Assembly: GCF_008704715.1 (NCBI RefSeq)
Contig: NZ_CP023689.1
Location: 9,114,001-9,178,000 of the forward strand
Reading direction: 5' to 3'
From: Streptomyces chartreusis
Lineage (GTDB): Bacteria; Actinomycetota; Actinomycetes; Streptomycetales; Streptomycetaceae
DNA length: 64,000 nt
Under the pieces are notes generated by a model, which did not search any database, was not told where the DNA came from, and was given only the letters and a program-made list of their open reading frames with translations. A program made the position numbers and the translations under genes. Each line of letters starts with the position of its first letter. The stretch's first letter is position 1. Positions 14,162-22,119 of the stretch are shown piece by piece.

Positions 14162-15790
14162 TCACCCGTCCCCGGACACCGCCACCTCGCGCGCCCAGCG
14201 GTAGTCCGCCTTGCCGCTGGGGGAGCGACGGATCGAGTCCGCGATCACCAGCTGGCGGGGGATCTTGTATCCCGCGAGATGGGAACGGCAGTGCGTCTGG
14301 ATGTCCGCCAGGGTCGGCCGCACCGCCCCCGTGCGCAACTGCACCACCGCCGCCACGTGGTGTCCCCACTTCGCGTCCGGCACTCCGGCCACCAGCGCGT
14401 CGTACACATCGGGGTGGGACTTGAGCGCCTGCTCGACCTCCTCCGGGTACACCTTCTCGCCGCCGGTGTTGATGCACTGCGAGCCGCGTCCGAGCACGGT
14501 GACGATGCCGTCCTCGTCCACCGTGGCCATGTCACCGAGCAGCACCCACCGCTTGCCGTCCTTCTGGAAGAAGGTCTCTGCGGTCTTCCGGGGGTCGTTG
14601 TAGTAGCCGAGCGGCACATGGCCGCACTGGGCGACCCGGCCCACCTCGCCCGCGGCGACCGGCTCGTACGTGGCCGGATCGACCACCTGCGTACGGGAGT
14701 TGACCCGGATGCGGAAGCCGCGCTCGGGGCCAGAGTCCTCGGTCGCCGTACCGTTGAAGCCGGACTCCGAGGAGCCGAAGTTGTTCAGGAGCATCACGTT
14801 CGGGACGAGCTCCTGGAACTGCCGGCGCACCGTGTCCGACATGATCGCCCCGGACGAGGACACGCTGAACATCGACGAGCAGTCCGTGCCCTTCATGGGC
14901 CCGTTCAGGGCGTCGACCAGCGGCCGCAGCATCGCGTCGCCGACCAGCGAGACGCTGGTGACCTTCTCCTTCTCGATAGTCCGCAGTACTTCCTCCGGCG
15001 CGAACTTGCGGTGGATCACGATGCGCTGGCCGAAGTTGAAGCCGATGAAGGCCGTCAGCGTGGACGTGCCGTGCATCAGCGGGGCGGTGGGGAAGAAGGT
15101 GATGCCGTCGCCGCCGGCCGCCACGCGCTCGGCGAGTTCCTCCGGTTTCTGGACCGGCTCACCGGTCGGCGCGCCGCCGCCCAGCCCCGAGAAGAACAGG
15201 TCCTCCTGGCGCCACATCACACCCTTGGGCATGCCGGTCGTGCCGCCGGTGTAGATGATGAACTGGTCGTCTCCCGACCGTGCCGGGAACCCCCGCTCGG
15301 GCGACGCGGCGGCCTCGGCGTCCGCGAAGGCCACGGCCGGCACGACCGGTGCCTCGGCCGCACCCGGCGCCACGGTCCCGACCCGCACCAGGTGCCGCAG
15401 CCCGTCCACGCGGGGCAGCGCCGCCGCCACCAGGTCAGTGAACTCCGCCTCGAAGACCAGGGCCACCAGATCGGCGTCCCGGTAGAGGTACACCAACTCC
15501 TCTTCCACATAGCGGTAGTTGACGTTGACCGGGACGATCCGCGCCTTGAGGCAGCCCAGCACCGTCTGGAGGTACTCGACGCCGTTGTAGAGATGGAGCC
15601 CGAGATGCTCGCCGGGACGTATCCCGCTGTCGAGCAGATGGTGGGCGATCCGGTTGGCCGCCGCGTCCAGCTCCGCATAGGTGAGGCGGCGCTCCGCACC
15701 CGTGCCCGGATGATCCATGTACACGAGCGCCTCGCGGTCCGGGACCGCGTCGACGACCGACTCGAACAGGTCGGCAAGGTTGTACTCCAC
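14162..15790 (-). CDS. FadD19-like acyl-CoA synthetase (steroid side-chain type)
   Basis: A 542-residue AMP-forming ligase that closely matches what I recall of mycobacterial FadD19, which activates the C26/C24 carboxylate of sterol side chains. The N-terminus EYNLADLFESVVDAVPDREAL, the phosphate loop YTGGTTGMPKG with VMWR (180-194), the NNFGSSESGF adenylate motif, GDMATVDEDG and the C-terminal PSGKADYRW with catalytic Lys527 all follow that subfamily. The GTG at 15790 is set by an AGGAGG site. It is divergent from an EchA19-like gene, the same arrangement as Rv3515c/Rv3516. A TCTGAC-N5-GTCAGA operator lies between them. The true substrate could be another branched or polycyclic acid. Confidence 0.85.
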   Translation of the reverse strand: MEYNLADLFESVVDAVPDREALVYMDHPGTGAERRLTYAELDAAANRIAHHLLDSGIRPGEHLGLHLYNGVEYLQTVLGCLKARIVPVNVNYRYVEEELVYLYRDADLVALVFEAEFTDLVAAALPRVDGLRHLVRVGTVAPGAAEAPVVPAVAFADAEAAASPERGFPARSGDDQFIIYTGGTTGMPKGVMWRQEDLFFSGLGGGAPTGEPVQKPEELAERVAAGGDGITFFPTAPLMHGTSTLTAFIGFNFGQRIVIHRKFAPEEVLRTIEKEKVTSVSLVGDAMLRPLVDALNGPMKGTDCSSMFSVSSSGAIMSDTVRRQFQELVPNVMLLNNFGSSESGFNGTATEDSGPERGFRIRVNSRTQVVDPATYEPVAAGEVGRVAQCGHVPLGYYNDPRKTAETFFQKDGKRWVLLGDMATVDEDGIVTVLGRGSQCINTGGEKVYPEEVEQALKSHPDVYDALVAGVPDAKWGHHVAAVVQLRTGAVRPTLADIQTHCRSHLAGYKIPRQLVIADSIRRSPSGKADYRWAREVAVSGDG

Positions 15791-15874
15791 CGTTCCTCCT
15801 GCCCTGGCTCTCCACCGGCTGCCGGTCATCAGAGCAAAGCGCGGCACAACTGTGAAGGGTCCGCGCACAAGAAA

Positions 15875-15891
15875 TCTGACTACCTGTCAGA
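15875..15891. promoter_or_regulatory. TetR-type operator TCTGAC-N5-GTCAGA in the fadD/echA divergent promoter
   Basis: A perfect 6-base inverted repeat with a 5-base spacer sits 85 bases from the ligase start and 66 bases from the hydratase start. Its position would let one regulator control both directions. The format is typical of TetR-family acyl-CoA-responsive repressors. It is unlike the KstR and KstR2 motifs I know. No TetR gene is adjacent in this window, so the regulator is encoded elsewhere. Confidence 0.65.
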
Positions 15892-15956
15892 AAACCCTTG
15901 AAGTGCCCCGGCGCCTCCTGCAACCTGTTCTCGTTCTTTCAGAGGGGAGATGGGCG

Positions 15957-16757
15957 ATGAGTGGGACGGAACACCTCACCGTGCGACGCGAAGGCGCCAC
16001 ACTGGTGCTCACGCTCAACAGGCCGGAGGCCAAGAACGCGCTCTCGTTGGCGATGCTCGTCGGCCTGTACGACGGCTGGCTGGAAGCCGACGCGGACGAC
16101 ACGATCCGCTCGGTCGTGTTCACGGGTGCGGGCGGCTCGTTCTGTGCGGGCATGGACCTCAAGGCCCTGGCAGGCCACGGCATGGAGGGCGAGCGCCACC
16201 GGGACCGGCTCAAGGCCGACCCCGATCTGCACTGGAAGGCGATGCTGCGCCACCACCGCCCCCGCAAGCCGGTGATCGCCGCCGTCGAGGGGTACTGCGT
16301 CGCCGGCGGCACCGAGATGCTCCAGGGCACCGACATCCGCGTCGCGGGCGAGTCGGCGACCTTCGGGCTCTTCGAAGTGAAGCGCGGCCTGTTCCCGATC
16401 GGCGGCTCCACGGTCCGGCTGCAACGCCAGATCCCGCGCACCCACGCCATGGAGATGCTGCTCACCGGACGTCCCTACAGCGCCCGTGAGGCCGCCGACA
16501 TCGGCCTGATCGGGCATGTCGTCCCCGACGGTACGGCACTGGACAAGGCCCTGGAGATCGCCGAACAGATCAACGCCTGCGGTCCCCTGGCCGTCGAGGC
16601 CGTCAAGGCGTCCGTGTACGACACCGCCGAGATGAGCGAGACCGACGGCCTCGCCGCCGAACTCAAGCGCGGCTGGCCGATCTTCGACACGGCCGACGCC
16701 AAGGAAGGCGCCCGCGCCTTCGCGGAGAAGCGGTCACCCGTCTACAAGCGCGCGTAG
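15957..16757 (+). CDS. Enoyl-CoA hydratase/crotonase (EchA19-like)
   Basis: A 266-residue crotonase-fold enzyme expected to hydrate a trans-2-enoyl-CoA. Both catalytic glutamates are present: Glu120 in GGTEMLQGTDI and Glu140 in FEVKRGLFPIGG. The oxyanion-hole segment GSFCAGMDLKAL (60-71) is intact. Sequence style and divergent pairing with the FadD19-like ligase match EchA19, which acts on sterol side-chain enoyl-CoAs. The start is set by GGGGAG upstream of the ATG at 15957. The DUF35 and Ltp genes follow after a 120-base gap carrying a Streptomyces intergenic repeat. Confidence 0.88.
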   Translation: MSGTEHLTVRREGATLVLTLNRPEAKNALSLAMLVGLYDGWLEADADDTIRSVVFTGAGGSFCAGMDLKALAGHGMEGERHRDRLKADPDLHWKAMLRHHRPRKPVIAAVEGYCVAGGTEMLQGTDIRVAGESATFGLFEVKRGLFPIGGSTVRLQRQIPRTHAMEMLLTGRPYSAREAADIGLIGHVVPDGTALDKALEIAEQINACGPLAVEAVKASVYDTAEMSETDGLAAELKRGWPIFDTADAKEGARAFAEKRSPVYKRA

Positions 16758-16799
16758 CGCTGCGCTGGCCCGGGCCGGTTGGAAGCAGCGGGCCGTATG

Positions 16800-16850
16800 T
16801 GGCTGGTCGCGCAGTTCCTCGCGCCCCCTTTCGGGGCGCGCCTCTCGCAC
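16800..16850. repeat. Streptomyces-type dispersed intergenic repeat with hairpin
   Basis: The sequence around ctggtcgcgcagttcctcgc followed by the inverted repeat gcgcccc-ctttc-ggggcgc belongs to a family of short intergenic elements that recur widely in Streptomyces genomes, usually as a cgcgcagttccccgcgcccc variant. Here it lies between the EchA19-like and DUF35 genes. Its hairpin could attenuate or process the operon transcript. Recognition is from memory; copy number cannot be checked here. Confidence 0.6.
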
Positions 16851-16877
16851 CCGACCTCCGAAGGAGGCACGCCCCCG

Positions 16878-17837
16878 ATGCCCGAAGTCCTCAAGGCGCC
16901 GCTGACCGTCGAGTTCCCCTTCACCCGCTCCCTCGGCCCCGTCCAGAGCGCCTTCCTCACCGGCCTGCGCGAACGCGTCGTGCTCGGGGTGCGCACCGGC
17001 GACGGACGCACACTCGTCCCACCCGTCGAGTACGACCCCGTCACCGCCGAGGAGATCCGCGACCTGGTCGAGGTCGCCCCGACGGGCACCGTCACCACGT
17101 GGGCCTGGAACCACGCCCCACGCCGCGACCAGCCCCTGAACACCCCCTTCGCCTGGGTCCTGGTACGCCTCGACGGCGCCGACACCGCCCTCCTGCACGC
17201 CCTCGACGCCCCCGGGCCCGACGCCGTGCACACCGGCATGCGGGTCCGCGTCCGCTGGGCCGAGGAACGCTCCGGCGCCATCACCGACATCGCCTGCTTC
17301 GAGCCGTACGACGACAGCGGCCAGGATGCCGGGGACATCTCTGAACCCTCCGCCCACAGCGGCGAGTTCGCGGACCCGATCACCGGCATCGTCGCCCGCG
17401 CCAGGCTCGACTACACCTACTCACCCGGCCGCGCCCAGTCCGCCTACCTCGCTGCCCTGGCCGAACACCGCAACGTCGGCGAGCGCTGCCCGTCCTGCCG
17501 CAAGGTGTACGTGCCGCCGAGGGGTGCGTGCCCCACATGTGGCCTCGCCACATCGGAACAGGTCGAAGTGGGTCCCCGGGGCACGGTCACCACGTTCTGC
17601 ATCGTCAACATCAAGGCGAAGAACCTCGACATCGAAGTGCCGTACGTCTACGCCCACATCGCCCTCGACGGCGCCGGCCTCGCCCTGCACGCCCGGATCG
17701 GCGGCATCCCCTACGACCAGGTGCGGATGGGCCTGCGGGTCGAACCCGTGTGGACGGCAGAGTCCCGCTTCCCCGATCACTACCGGCCCACGGGCGAGCC
17801 CGACGCGGACTACGACACCTACAGGGAGCTGCTGTGA
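16878..17837 (+). CDS. Tandem DUF35 OB-fold protein, acyl-CoA-binding partner of Ltp enzymes
   Basis: A 319-residue protein made of two DUF35-like halves. The C-terminal half (about 165-319) has an intact zinc ribbon (Cys204, Cys207, Cys218, Cys221) and OB fold. The N-terminal half (about 1-145) has the OB-fold pattern, but its ribbon cysteines are missing (VVLGVRTGDGRTLVPP). DUF35 proteins such as ChsH2 bind acyl-CoA and assemble with thiolase-fold partners such as Ltp2 to cleave sterol side chains; Rv3521 is the likely mycobacterial counterpart. AAGGAGG ten bases upstream sets the start at 16878. The stop overlaps the next gene's GTG, so it is coupled to both thiolase-fold genes. Confidence 0.85.
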   Translation: MPEVLKAPLTVEFPFTRSLGPVQSAFLTGLRERVVLGVRTGDGRTLVPPVEYDPVTAEEIRDLVEVAPTGTVTTWAWNHAPRRDQPLNTPFAWVLVRLDGADTALLHALDAPGPDAVHTGMRVRVRWAEERSGAITDIACFEPYDDSGQDAGDISEPSAHSGEFADPITGIVARARLDYTYSPGRAQSAYLAALAEHRNVGERCPSCRKVYVPPRGACPTCGLATSEQVEVGPRGTVTTFCIVNIKAKNLDIEVPYVYAHIALDGAGLALHARIGGIPYDQVRMGLRVEPVWTAESRFPDHYRPTGEPDADYDTYRELL

Positions 17838-18883
17838 ACCGCGAGATCGCCGTCGTCGCCTTTGCGCAGACCGACCACCGGCGCACCAGCGAGGAGCTCT
17901 CCGAGGTGGAGATGCTCATGCCCGTCCTGCACGAGGTGCTGGCGCAGACCGGCCTGAAGACCGCCGACATCGGCTTCACCTGCTCCGGCTCCAGCGACTA
18001 CCTCGCCGGGCGCGCCTTCTCCTTCACCCTCGCCCTCGACGGCGTGGGCGCCTGGCCCCCGATCTCCGAGTCGCACGTCGAGATGGACGGCGCCTGGGCG
18101 CTGTACGAGGCGTGGACCAAGCTGCTGACCGGGGACGCCGACACCGCGCTCGTCTACTCCTACGGCAAGTCCTCACCCGGCCCGCTGCGCGACGTCCTCA
18201 CCCGCCAGCTCGACCCGTACTACGTCGCCCCGCTCTGGCCCGACTCCGTCGCCCTCGCCGCCCTCCAGGCCCAGGCCCTCATCGACGCCGGCGACACCGA
18301 CGAACCCGCCCTCGCCGCGGTCGCCGCCCGCAGCCGGGCCGACGCCACCGCCAACTCCCATGCCCAGCTGAGCGGTTCGGTGCCGCACGGGGACTACCTC
18401 GTACGACCGCTGCGTACCGGCGACTGCCCGCCCATCGGCGACGGAGCCGCCGCCGTGATCCTCGCGGCGGGGGAGCGGGCCCGTGAGCTGTGCGATCGGC
18501 CCGCCTGGATCCGCGGCCTGGACCACCGCATCGAGGCCCACGGCCTGGGCGTGCGCGACCTCACCGACTCGCCCTCCACCCGCCTTGCCGCCGAGAAGGC
18601 CGGCGCCTTCGAACGGCCCGTCGACACCGCCGAGTTGCACGCCCCGTTCACCGCGCAGGAGGTCGTCCTGCGCAAGGCGCTGAGCCTCGACGACGGCGTG
18701 CGCGTCAACCCGTCCGGCGGCGCGCTCGCCGCCAACCCCGTCATGGCCGCCGGGCTCATCCGCATCGGCGAGGCCGCCGCCGGCATCCACCGGGGCGAGT
18801 CCGACCGGGCGCTCGCACACGCCACGTCCGGCCCCTGTCTGCAACAGAACCTGGTCGCCGTACTCGAAGGGGATCCGCGATGA
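17834..18883 (+). CDS. Thiolase-fold lipid-transfer protein, Ltp4-like
   Basis: A 349-residue thiolase-superfamily protein of the SCPx/Ltp group. It opens with AVVAFAQTDHRR and keeps the VNPSGGALAANPVMAAGLIR loop of the family. At the usual nucleophile position the sequence reads SESHVEMDGA, with no catalytic cysteine, so it is unlikely to be a normal ketothiolase. A retro-aldolase role like that shown for Ltp2 with a DUF35 partner is plausible. It starts with GTG overlapping the DUF35 stop (GTGA) and its own stop overlaps the next start. Gene order matches Rv3521-Rv3522-Rv3523, where Rv3522 is ltp4. Confidence 0.8.
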   Translation: MNREIAVVAFAQTDHRRTSEELSEVEMLMPVLHEVLAQTGLKTADIGFTCSGSSDYLAGRAFSFTLALDGVGAWPPISESHVEMDGAWALYEAWTKLLTGDADTALVYSYGKSSPGPLRDVLTRQLDPYYVAPLWPDSVALAALQAQALIDAGDTDEPALAAVAARSRADATANSHAQLSGSVPHGDYLVRPLRTGDCPPIGDGAAAVILAAGERARELCDRPAWIRGLDHRIEAHGLGVRDLTDSPSTRLAAEKAGAFERPVDTAELHAPFTAQEVVLRKALSLDDGVRVNPSGGALAANPVMAAGLIRIGEAAAGIHRGESDRALAHATSGPCLQQNLVAVLEGDPR

Positions 18884-20046
18884 GCAAGGAGCCCGTGGCC
18901 GTCATAGGCATCGGACAGACCAAGCACGTCGCCGCGCGCCGGGACGTGTCGATCGCCGGGCTCGTCCGGGAGGCGGCCCGCAGCGCACTCGACGACGCCG
19001 AGCTGGACTGGGCGGACATCGACGCCGTGGTCATCGGCAAGGCGCCCGACTTCTTCGAGGGCGTGATGATGCCGGAGCTGTACCTCGCCGACGCCCTCGG
19101 CGCGGTCGGCAAGCCCATGCTCCGCGTCCACACGGCGGGCTCGGTCGGCGGATCGACGGCACTCGTCGCCGCCAACCTGGTCGCCGCCCGCGTCCACGGC
19201 ACCGTGCTGACGCTCGCCTTCGAGAAACAGTCCGAGTCCAACGCCATGTGGGGACTGTCCCTGCCCATGCCCTTCCAGCAGCCGCTGCTGGCCGGGGCCG
19301 GCGGGTTCTTCGCCCCGCACGTGCGCGCGTACATGCGGCGCAGCGGCGCGCCCGACACGATCGGCTCGCTGGTCGCGTACAAGGACCGGCGCAACGCCTT
19401 GAAGAACCCGTACGCCCATCTGCACGAGCACGACATCACCCTGGAGAAGGTCCAGGCGTCCCCCATGTTGTGGGACCCCATCCGCTACTCGGAGACCTGC
19501 CCCTCCTCCGACGGGGCATGCGCGATGGTCCTCACCGACCGGGCCGGAGCCGCCCGCGCGCCCCGGCCGCCCGCGTGGATGCTCGGCGGCGCGATGCGCA
19601 GCGAGCCCACCCTCTTCCCCGGCAAGGACGCCGTGTCACCGCAGGCCGGCAAGGACTGCGCGGCCGACGTGTACCGCCAGGCGGGCATCGCCGACCCGCG
19701 CCGGGACATCGACGCCGTCGAGATGTACGTGCCGTTCTCCTGGTACGAGCCCATGTGGCTGGAGAACCTCGGCTTCGCCGCCGAGGGCGAGGGCTGGAAG
19801 CTCACCGAGGCCGGGGTGACCGAGCTGGACGGCGACCTGCCGGTCAACATGTCGGGCGGCGTCCTGTCGACCAACCCCATCGGGGCCTCCGGGATGATCC
19901 GCTTCGCCGAAGCCGCCCTCCAGGTGCGCGGCCAGGCCGGGGAACACCAGGTGGAAGGGGCACGCAAGGCGCTCGGGCACGCCTACGGCGGAGGGTCGCA
20001 GTTCTTCGCGATGTGGCTCGTGGGCGCCGAGCCCCCGGACGCCTGA
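18880..20046 (+). CDS. Thiolase-fold lipid-transfer protein, Ltp3-like
   Basis: A 388-residue SCPx-type thiolase-fold protein. The N-terminus PVAVIGIGQTKHVAARRDVS and the C-terminal NMSGGVLSTNPIGASGM and HAYGGGSQF loops are family hallmarks. In the segment RVHTAGSVGGSTA that normally carries the nucleophilic cysteine there is Ala-Gly instead, so classical thiolysis is doubtful. It is joined to the upstream gene by an ATGA overlap. A heteromeric complex of this protein, the Ltp4-like protein and the DUF35 protein is the natural inference, acting after the EchA19-like hydratase on a beta-hydroxyacyl-CoA. Confidence 0.82.
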   Translation: MSKEPVAVIGIGQTKHVAARRDVSIAGLVREAARSALDDAELDWADIDAVVIGKAPDFFEGVMMPELYLADALGAVGKPMLRVHTAGSVGGSTALVAANLVAARVHGTVLTLAFEKQSESNAMWGLSLPMPFQQPLLAGAGGFFAPHVRAYMRRSGAPDTIGSLVAYKDRRNALKNPYAHLHEHDITLEKVQASPMLWDPIRYSETCPSSDGACAMVLTDRAGAARAPRPPAWMLGGAMRSEPTLFPGKDAVSPQAGKDCAADVYRQAGIADPRRDIDAVEMYVPFSWYEPMWLENLGFAAEGEGWKLTEAGVTELDGDLPVNMSGGVLSTNPIGASGMIRFAEAALQVRGQAGEHQVEGARKALGHAYGGGSQFFAMWLVGAEPPDA

Positions 20047-20166: not shown

Positions 20167-20412
20167 GTGGCCGAGAGCACCACCATCCAGCAGCAGCCGT
20201 TCACGGGCTGGGACAAGCCGGAACTGGACCTCAGCACCGCCGACTGGCACTCGAGCAGCCGTGGCCTGGGGGATGTCCAGATCGCCTTTGTCGAGGGGTT
20301 CATCGCGATGCGCAACAGCGGCCGCCCGGAGAGCCCTTCCCTGATCTTCACGCCCGCCGAGTGGGGCGCGTTCGTGTCGGGCGCGCGCGAGGGCGAGTTC
20401 GACCTGACCTGA
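20167..20412 (+). CDS. DUF397 domain protein
   Basis: An 81-residue DUF397 protein, a family found almost only in actinobacteria and usually encoded beside a helix-turn-helix regulator and often an ATP-binding (anti-sigma-like) protein. Visible signatures are the LSTADWHSSSRG opening, VEGFIAMRNSGRPESPSLIFTPAEWGAFVSGAREGEFDL. Here no such partner is adjacent. The GTG start at 20167 follows a GGGAGGAG site. Function is unknown; in other systems the family acts as a small regulator of development or antibiotic production. Confidence 0.85.
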   Translation: MAESTTIQQQPFTGWDKPELDLSTADWHSSSRGLGDVQIAFVEGFIAMRNSGRPESPSLIFTPAEWGAFVSGAREGEFDLT

Positions 20413-21621: not shown

Positions 21622-22119
21622 ATGTCGTTCCTCCGCCGCCGCAGCGCCACGCCCGCCGGGCCCGACTTCGACGTACTGGCCATGGACCCGGGCGACTGGC
21701 CCGGCAACCTGGGCGCCGGGCTGCTGCCCGCCCCCGACGGCAGCTGCCAGGGCGTCTTCCTGCGCTACGACCTCTTCGGCGGCCGCGGTCCGGCGATGAT
21801 CATCGGCAATCTGCCCGAGGGCTCCCCGGCCCGCGAGGTGGAGCAGGACGAGATCCCGTTCGAGGTCGCGCAGCTGCTGCTGGCGCTGGAGAACGAAGAG
21901 GAGGTCACCGTCGTCGGCAGCGAGGACGTGCCGGTGATGCAGGGCGACAACCTCCTGATCGTGCGGCGCCTCAAGCTCTCCGAGAGCCGGATCTCCTGTG
22001 TGCAGTTCGACCGCAGCGACAATGTGCTGGTCACCATCGCCGCCTGGGACCGCCCCATCACCGACGACCTGTACGCCCTGCTCAAGCCGCTGCCCGCGGA
22101 GCTCTTCCAGCAGGGCTGA
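21622..22119 (+). CDS. Conserved hypothetical protein
   Basis: A 165-residue soluble, acidic protein I do not recognise by family. It has a short basic N-terminus (MSFLRRRS), then an alternating beta/alpha pattern with segments such as GVFLRYDLFGGRGPAMIIGNLPEG, EEVTVVGSEDVPVMQGDNLLIVRRLKL and SCVQFDRSDNVLVTIAAWDRP. No signal peptide, membrane helix or metal motif is present. There is no good ribosome site at 21622; an ATG eight bases upstream is out of frame, so the message may be leaderless or have a short leader. It stands alone between the stress protein and the GH95 gene. Confidence 0.75.
   Translation: MSFLRRRSATPAGPDFDVLAMDPGDWPGNLGAGLLPAPDGSCQGVFLRYDLFGGRGPAMIIGNLPEGSPAREVEQDEIPFEVAQLLLALENEEEVTVVGSEDVPVMQGDNLLIVRRLKLSESRISCVQFDRSDNVLVTIAAWDRPITDDLYALLKPLPAELFQQG

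Follow-up and report, generated by a model that had tools for sequence, protein, structure and literature searches.

A conserved five-gene block in Streptomyces chartreusis as a putative module of a dispersed sterol side-chain regulon

What might a Streptomyces do with a set of genes that other bacteria are reported to need for sterols branched at C24? Published accounts describe fadD19, ltp3 and ltp4 as necessary for such sterols in Mycobacterium or Rhodococcus. Genes of these families form part of a five-gene block at positions 14162 to 20046 of the stretch that we analysed, 64,000 nucleotides of Streptomyces chartreusis DNA (the window; 9,114,001-9,178,000 of a 9.9-Mb chromosome). We consider it fairly probable that this block is the C24-branched side-chain module of a sterol regulon that is dispersed over the chromosome under an operator of its own, and that Ltp3 and Ltp4 act as a heteromer clamped by a DUF35 protein. 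This reading draws on the identity and coupling of the genes, the conservation of their motifs, a palindrome common to several loci and co-occurrence across the genus. The gene set is already known; its Streptomyces setting, with the dispersed regulon proposed here and a distinct palindrome, is new.

The five-gene block and its conservation

We confirmed the block as a real arrangement and not one due to chance. On the reverse strand, a gene for a FadD19-family acyl-CoA ligase (14162-15790; PRK07798, 750.3 bits, cut-off 543) is divergent from a forward-strand gene for an EchA19-like enoyl-CoA hydratase (15957-16757; PRK07799, 421.3, cut-off 316), whose top solved match is EchA19 (6wyi). The FadD19 start was reset, by reading of the sequence, to a GTG at 15790 that is preceded by an AGGAGG ribosome site. 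The forward strand continues with genes for a tandem DUF35 protein (16878-17837; Pfam OB_ChsH2_C in two stretches and zf-ChsH2) and two thiolase-like subunits, Ltp4 (17834-18883; PRK07937, 574.4, cut-off 419), which has SHVE(M/T)D at the nucleophile region, and Ltp3 (18880-20046; PRK08313, 712.7, cut-off 514), which has Y283-VPF and an NP motif and no nucleophilic cysteine. Stop and start codons overlap at the DUF35-Ltp4 and Ltp4-Ltp3 junctions, so these three genes are coupled. The coupling of both Ltp families with a DUF35 gene is a feature that the block has in common with the C24-branched set.

The family names given in a preliminary description of this DNA hold, with FadD19, Ltp4 and Ltp3 passing curated models, EchA19 a broader model and the fifth protein matching Pfam DUF35. 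That description had also likened the block to the mycobacterial set with the intervening genes removed, and the spacing agrees, since EchA19 and DUF35 are 120 bp apart here and about 3.2 kb apart in two loci that were taken as mycobacterial (L140, L141). The Rhodococcus and mycobacterial C24 set (fadD19, echA19, the Rv3521 DUF35 gene, ltp4 and ltp3) comprises the same families, likewise with fadD19 and echA19 divergent and DUF35, ltp4 and ltp3 consecutive. Unlike that set, the Streptomyces block has both parts adjacent, a different promoter palindrome and scattered partner genes.

For comparison we retained the 80 nearest named loci, chosen by Ltp4 match, every one of which is from Streptomyces. 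Ltp4 and Ltp3 are present in all 80, DUF35 in 79, EchA19 in 77 and FadD19 in 75; the misses fall in five loci that start within or beside the block (L030, L072, L094, L099, L108). Synteny is kept in all 80 as far as each locus extends, and each of the five proteins is 78-98% identical across the loci that contain it. In a survey of 246 Streptomyces genomes, 168 are positive for the Ltp4 family and 78 negative, and across the class the family occurs in 69 of 296 genomes and 19 of 114 genera. Acquisition of the block by this strain alone was rejected, as Ltp4 is found in 168 of the 246 genomes and the block across 80 loci. In S. clavuligerus (L139) the block lies on a 278-kb linear plasmid, close to a terpene synthase gene.

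A palindrome common to sterol-type loci

The gap between fadD19 and echA19 contains a palindromic operator-like site, TCTGACTACCTGTCAGA (15875-15891), which belongs to a genome-wide set. Its pattern, TCTGAC-N5-GTCAGA, is exact in 73 of 77 such intergenic regions, the window included, and has one mismatch in the other four. The chromosome of S. chartreusis carries 45 sites with at most one mismatch, five of them exact, against one for a reversed control. Only 11 of the 43 sites inspected (the 45 less the window's own and one more) lie within predicted genes, though the stretches are 84% coding; genes outside the window are here the predictions of a simple caller, without comparison with annotation.

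One site lies between a gene for CYP125 (523 bits to a solved CYP125 against 310 to CYP124) and a divergent gene for FadA5 (PRK07850, 682.5, cut-off 515), a pairing that Rv3545c/Rv3546 also show. Another stands at a chsH2-chsH1-ltp2-like operon, which encodes at its head a ChsH2-like protein with MaoC and DUF35 parts, followed by a MaoC protein and then by a member of the Ltp2 family that has a YDHF motif (667.2, cut-off 469; 569.7 bits to 6ok1). The palindrome also occurs at a gene for KstD at 4.25 Mb (PRK07843, 921.5, cut-off 788). Twelve occurrences fall between 5.478 and 5.562 Mb, where a 60-kb catabolic region encodes a FadD3-family ligase (802.8, cut-off 657), a second set of Ltp, DUF35 and EchA proteins, several proteins that resemble acyl-CoA dehydrogenases, and a reductase of HsaB type that is below its cut-off (184.5 against 230).

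These associations recur in other genomes. CYP125 adjoins FadA5 in all 20 loci read, at 75-90% identity, and the gap between the two genes has the palindrome within two mismatches in 19 of the 20, compared with 8 of 1000 shuffles. The corresponding figures upstream of kstD are 11 of 20 and 10 of 1000. At most 12 kb separate kstD from Ltp4 in at least 15 of 67 kstD-carrying genomes; of eight such loci that were read, a site with at most one mismatch is found at kstD in seven and at the block in all eight.

Other parts of the proposed system also co-occur with Ltp4 across the genus. At survey thresholds of 1e-160 for FadA5 and 1e-230 for KstD, FadA5 was found in 167 of 168 Ltp4-positive genomes and 5 of 78 Ltp4-negative ones; for KstD the counts are 66 of the 168 and one of the 78. 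For a slightly narrower motif, TCTGACGG-N3-GTCAGA, the median count with at most one mismatch is 14 among the Ltp4-positive genomes and 2 among the Ltp4-negative ones.

A second conserved element, TGCAACCTGTTC, lies on the forward strand upstream of echA19 (15919-15930) and resembles a degenerate KstR box. It is conserved in 76 of the 77 intergenic regions; elsewhere in the genome it occurs once, inside a predicted gene, and no second promoter bearing it was found there. The best match in the block promoter to the KstR box TAGAACNNGTTCTA is TGCAACCTGTTCTC, with 9 of 12 positions as counted by hand (7 of 8 in the core), and we rejected this box as the common operator here. Outside Streptomyces, 23 stretches of 13-31 kb from other actinobacteria with orthologous sets were read, and 15 of them have a KstR-like box that matches at 11 or 12 of the 12 positions. 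The proposed regulon resembles the mycobacterial KstR regulon (PMC1995591) in that scattered sterol genes share a palindrome, and differs from it in the palindrome itself (TCTGAC-N5-GTCAGA against TAGAACNNGTTCTA) and in having a regulator that is a candidate. The same paper, by Kendall and colleagues in 2007, gives the KstR motif and mentions a possible S. coelicolor orthologue of KstR with 32% identity and no synteny. We found no description of a dispersed Streptomyces sterol regulon with this palindrome among the titles and abstract openings that our searches of open-access papers listed.

The candidate regulator is the product of the single PF17925 TetR match in the genome (6948748-6949068; L179, L272), in the family that includes KstR. 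The palindrome ahead of an aldehyde dehydrogenase gene lies 2 kb away from it, and cyp125/fadA5 about 22 kb away. The family is found in 229 of the 246 Streptomyces genomes, including 63 of the 78 Ltp4-negative ones; the protein therefore remains a candidate, and its standing as a proven regulator was rejected. A PF19352 TetR protein in the 60-kb region has no palindrome within 6 kb.

Substrate and extent of degradation

For the substrate, reaction, complex and repression, we infer the following scheme. A repressor at TCTGAC-N5-GTCAGA would set transcription. FadD19 would form the CoA thioester of a side-chain carboxylate produced by CYP125, and an acyl-CoA dehydrogenase, like CYP125 encoded elsewhere, would desaturate this thioester. 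Hydration by EchA19 would give a 3-hydroxyacyl-CoA, the hydroxyl of which would be tertiary in C24-branched sterols and so not oxidisable to the ketone required for thiolysis. Ltp3 and Ltp4 would cleave the C-C bond by a retro-aldol reaction without a cysteine nucleophile, with Ltp3 giving a tyrosine base and the two-lobed DUF35 protein clamping the pair.

The preliminary description had seen no ring-degradation genes. This stands for the window genes examined, but not for the genome, where kstD at 4.25 Mb has the same palindrome as the block. CYP125, FadA5, KstD and the Ltp2-like operon are features shared with aerobic 9,10-seco steroid degradation. Unlike that pathway, the genome gave no match for KshA in a genome search, and an extradiol dioxygenase at 2.54 Mb was rejected as a member of the system, with a score of 225 against a cut-off of 366 and no palindrome within one mismatch in the surrounding 35 kb. 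By sequence reading, the genes there (2.542 Mb; L215, L216) form a meta-cleavage-like cluster, with the dioxygenase, a hydrolase and others, and without the palindrome. KshA matches at E<=0.001 occur in 66 of the 246 Streptomyces genomes and reach 260 bits or more in 20, of which 18 are Ltp4-positive. Four KshA-containing stretches from three Streptomyces genomes (L220-L223) contain no palindrome within one mismatch; as read from their sequence, they resemble ring-degradation clusters. Because KshA was not found (other ring enzymes were not searched genome-wide), S. chartreusis would not be expected to open ring B in the usual way, but to remove side chains and carry out delta-1 dehydrogenation.

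Several observations weigh against a sterol side-chain module with a common operator. KshA is missing from the search results for this genome, and 226 of the 246 genomes have no KshA match of 260 bits or more. KstD, at its threshold of 1e-230, is found in just 66 of the 168 Ltp4-positive genomes. One of the 20 cyp125/fadA5 gaps and nine of the 20 kstD upstream regions have no site within two mismatches, and the genes at some palindromes (M15 peptidase, isochorismatase, SRP54/FtsY-type) have no obvious connection with sterols. The motif counts of the two groups overlap, with five or fewer in 6 of 168 Ltp4-positive genomes and six or more in 12 of 78 Ltp4-negative ones, and the kinship among the 246 genomes means that P values and co-occurrence tests overstate their independence. 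EchA19 scores 375.3 against the narrow equivalog NF051848, below the cut-off of 400, whereas the broader PRK07799 is passed. The general-acid residues of the Ltp2 and Sal aldolases are not kept in Ltp3 or, as a rule, in Ltp4. Finally, according to PMC10398937, M. neoaurum WIII without ltp3 or ltp4 still yields 4-HBC from phytosterols.

Alternatively, the substrate of the module might be some other bulky acyl-CoA with a beta branch, from the side chain of a triterpenoid, hopanoid or isoprenoid, in which case its steroid names would come from homologues only. The failure to find KshA in this genome would agree with such a substrate, as would the broad-use tannase-like, FadD and LLM-type genes of the 60-kb region and the terpene synthase gene near the S. 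clavuligerus block. However, the genes that share the palindrome (CYP125, FadA5, KstD and the ChsH2/ChsH1/Ltp2-like operon) are of steroid type as judged from curated models or the best solved match, and FadA5 closely follows Ltp4 across genomes; we regard this alternative as unlikely, though with a real chance of being correct. It is improbable that the block is decaying and without present use, left over from a complete steroid pathway in an ancestor: the lack of a KshA match and the position of kstD, which is away from the block here and beside it in other species, would fit decay, but the proteins are 78-98% identical, their key motifs are kept and 73 of 77 regions have the palindrome without a mismatch.

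The proposed regulon makes Streptomyces a likely degrader of sterol side chains. A survey with models of eight nucleus-degradation proteins (PMC4810484) left 55 of 57 Streptomyces genomes without a steroid pathway, and a dispersed system centred on the side chain could escape a screen of that kind. A wider and more tentative picture, possible and no more than that in our estimate, is that about two thirds of Streptomyces species have a scattered sterol side-chain programme under a rewired operator, to which a repressor of the KstR family may bind, that this programme reduces sterols to C19 or C22 cores and in most species leaves the rings closed, and that an asymmetric Ltp3-Ltp4 heterodimer with a DUF35 clamp constitutes a new aldolase architecture. 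If so, Streptomyces would be widespread trimmers of the side chains of fungal and plant sterols, the propionyl-CoA and acetyl-CoA released could supply polyketide synthesis, and the genus would offer convenient laboratory strains for establishing what reaction Ltp3/Ltp4 catalyse. A 1977 study in the reference list of PMC5380842, going by its title, reportedly dealt with HIP metabolism by Streptomyces rubescens.

Ltp3, Ltp4 and their putative two-lobed DUF35 partner

The DUF35 protein is a tandem duplication as judged from its sequence. Its N-terminal lobe has no zinc cysteines, its C-terminal lobe has a zinc ribbon and OB fold, and the two are 33% identical over 117 residues (BLASTP E 5e-16), with a half-against-half score of 137 compared with a maximum of 58 in 1000 shuffles. 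The duplication extends beyond Streptomyces, as 18 of 19 copies from other loci (S. clavuligerus among the 18) score 96-207; the exception is L153, with 33. The C lobe matches the ChsH2-DUF35 chain 6ok1_B and other thiolase partners. According to PMC12329534, the Ltp2 and Sal complexes are homodimers with two separate DUF35 domains. Two unlike thiolase-like subunits together with one two-lobed DUF35 chain suggest that a single chain may clamp the Ltp3-Ltp4 pair. Structure models from shallow Streptomyces alignments were poor (mean pLDDT 33.8 for Ltp4 and 51.2 for DUF35) and were not used.

PMC9782250 reports a 2.9-fold rise on cholesterol for the homologue of the DUF35 gene in S. hirsuta, and suggests that this Rv3521 homologue could bind DNA like KstR. 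A role as a DNA-binding regulator in place of a scaffold is very improbable here, however, as the matches of the C lobe are to partners of thiolases, the DUF35 protein of the Ltp2 aldolase among them, and the gene is translationally coupled to ltp4.

Alignment to solved thiolases, with columns matched by eye, places glycine at the nucleophile position of the window's Ltp3 and methionine at that of its Ltp4, and restored no cysteine, in keeping with the earlier claim that both proteins lack it. The position is glycine in Ltp3 from all 80 Streptomyces loci, and methionine in 70 and threonine in 10 of the Ltp4 proteins, never cysteine in either. In a wider alignment of 39 rows (24 from loci elsewhere, including S. 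clavuligerus, 14 from sampled Streptomyces, and the window), Ltp3 has glycine in 38, the remaining row (L157) being scrambled at the position, and Ltp4 has methionine in 36 and threonine in three. Both proteins of the window have NP in place of the GHP motif. Ordinary thiolytic beta-oxidation by divergent SCP2-type thiolases, to which the overall likeness of Ltp3 and Ltp4 to thiolases might point, can practically be dismissed, given that none of the 80 loci has the cysteine in either protein and the window's pair has NP for GHP; the thiolase reading was ruled out on the missing cysteine.

Other residues distinguish the two subunits. In Ltp3, Tyr283 and Pro285 are invariant in all 39 rows and YVPF is present in 38, the exception being YIPY. 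In the SHVExD segment of Ltp4, the serine, histidine, valine, glutamate and aspartate are invariant in all 39 rows. At the Ltp4 position aligned to the catalytic tyrosine of Ltp2, 25 rows show H, Y, Q or S, with tyrosine in two rows, L140 and L141. In TcLtp2, according to PMC12329534, Tyr294 of YDHF is the base and Tyr344 the acid, and CtSal uses Tyr302 and Cys304. Ltp3 thus retains the base tyrosine without the known acids, whereas both are generally missing from Ltp4. We take Ltp3 to be the probable catalytic subunit, with the invariant histidine, glutamate and aspartate of the Ltp4 loop (His81, Glu83 and Asp85) perhaps assisting at or near the dimer interface.

The Ltp3-Ltp4 pair is like the Ltp2-ChsH2 and Sal-Shy aldolases in its thiolase fold without a nucleophilic cysteine, its putative DUF35 partner and the tyrosine at the base position of Ltp3. 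It is unlike them in that its thiolase-like subunits are of two kinds, that only one DUF35 chain, a tandem one, goes with them, and that Ltp3 has YVPF with asparagine instead of YDHF with Tyr344 (or YDCY). The earlier comparison with Ltp2 is therefore apt for the missing cysteine, but not for the YDHF tyrosine and histidine and Tyr344, which are YVPF and asparagine in Ltp3, while the first position is variable in Ltp4. The remark that neither protein has a settled reaction needs qualification, since published work describes both genes as necessary for branched sterols, yet the M. neoaurum deletions convert phytosterols. PMC6273163 cites Ltp3 and Ltp4 as essential for branched side chains; it also reports that M. 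smegmatis needs FadD19 for beta-sitosterol and not for cholesterol, and that echA19 is non-essential for either.

Two further genes commonly lie downstream of the block. A DUF397 gene (20167-20412) is found there in 76 of the 80 Streptomyces loci, and a gene for a 165-residue protein without a Pfam match (21622-22119) in 71; the latter protein is 85-98% identical across loci, and its gene adjoins kstD in all eight loci read that have kstD near the block.

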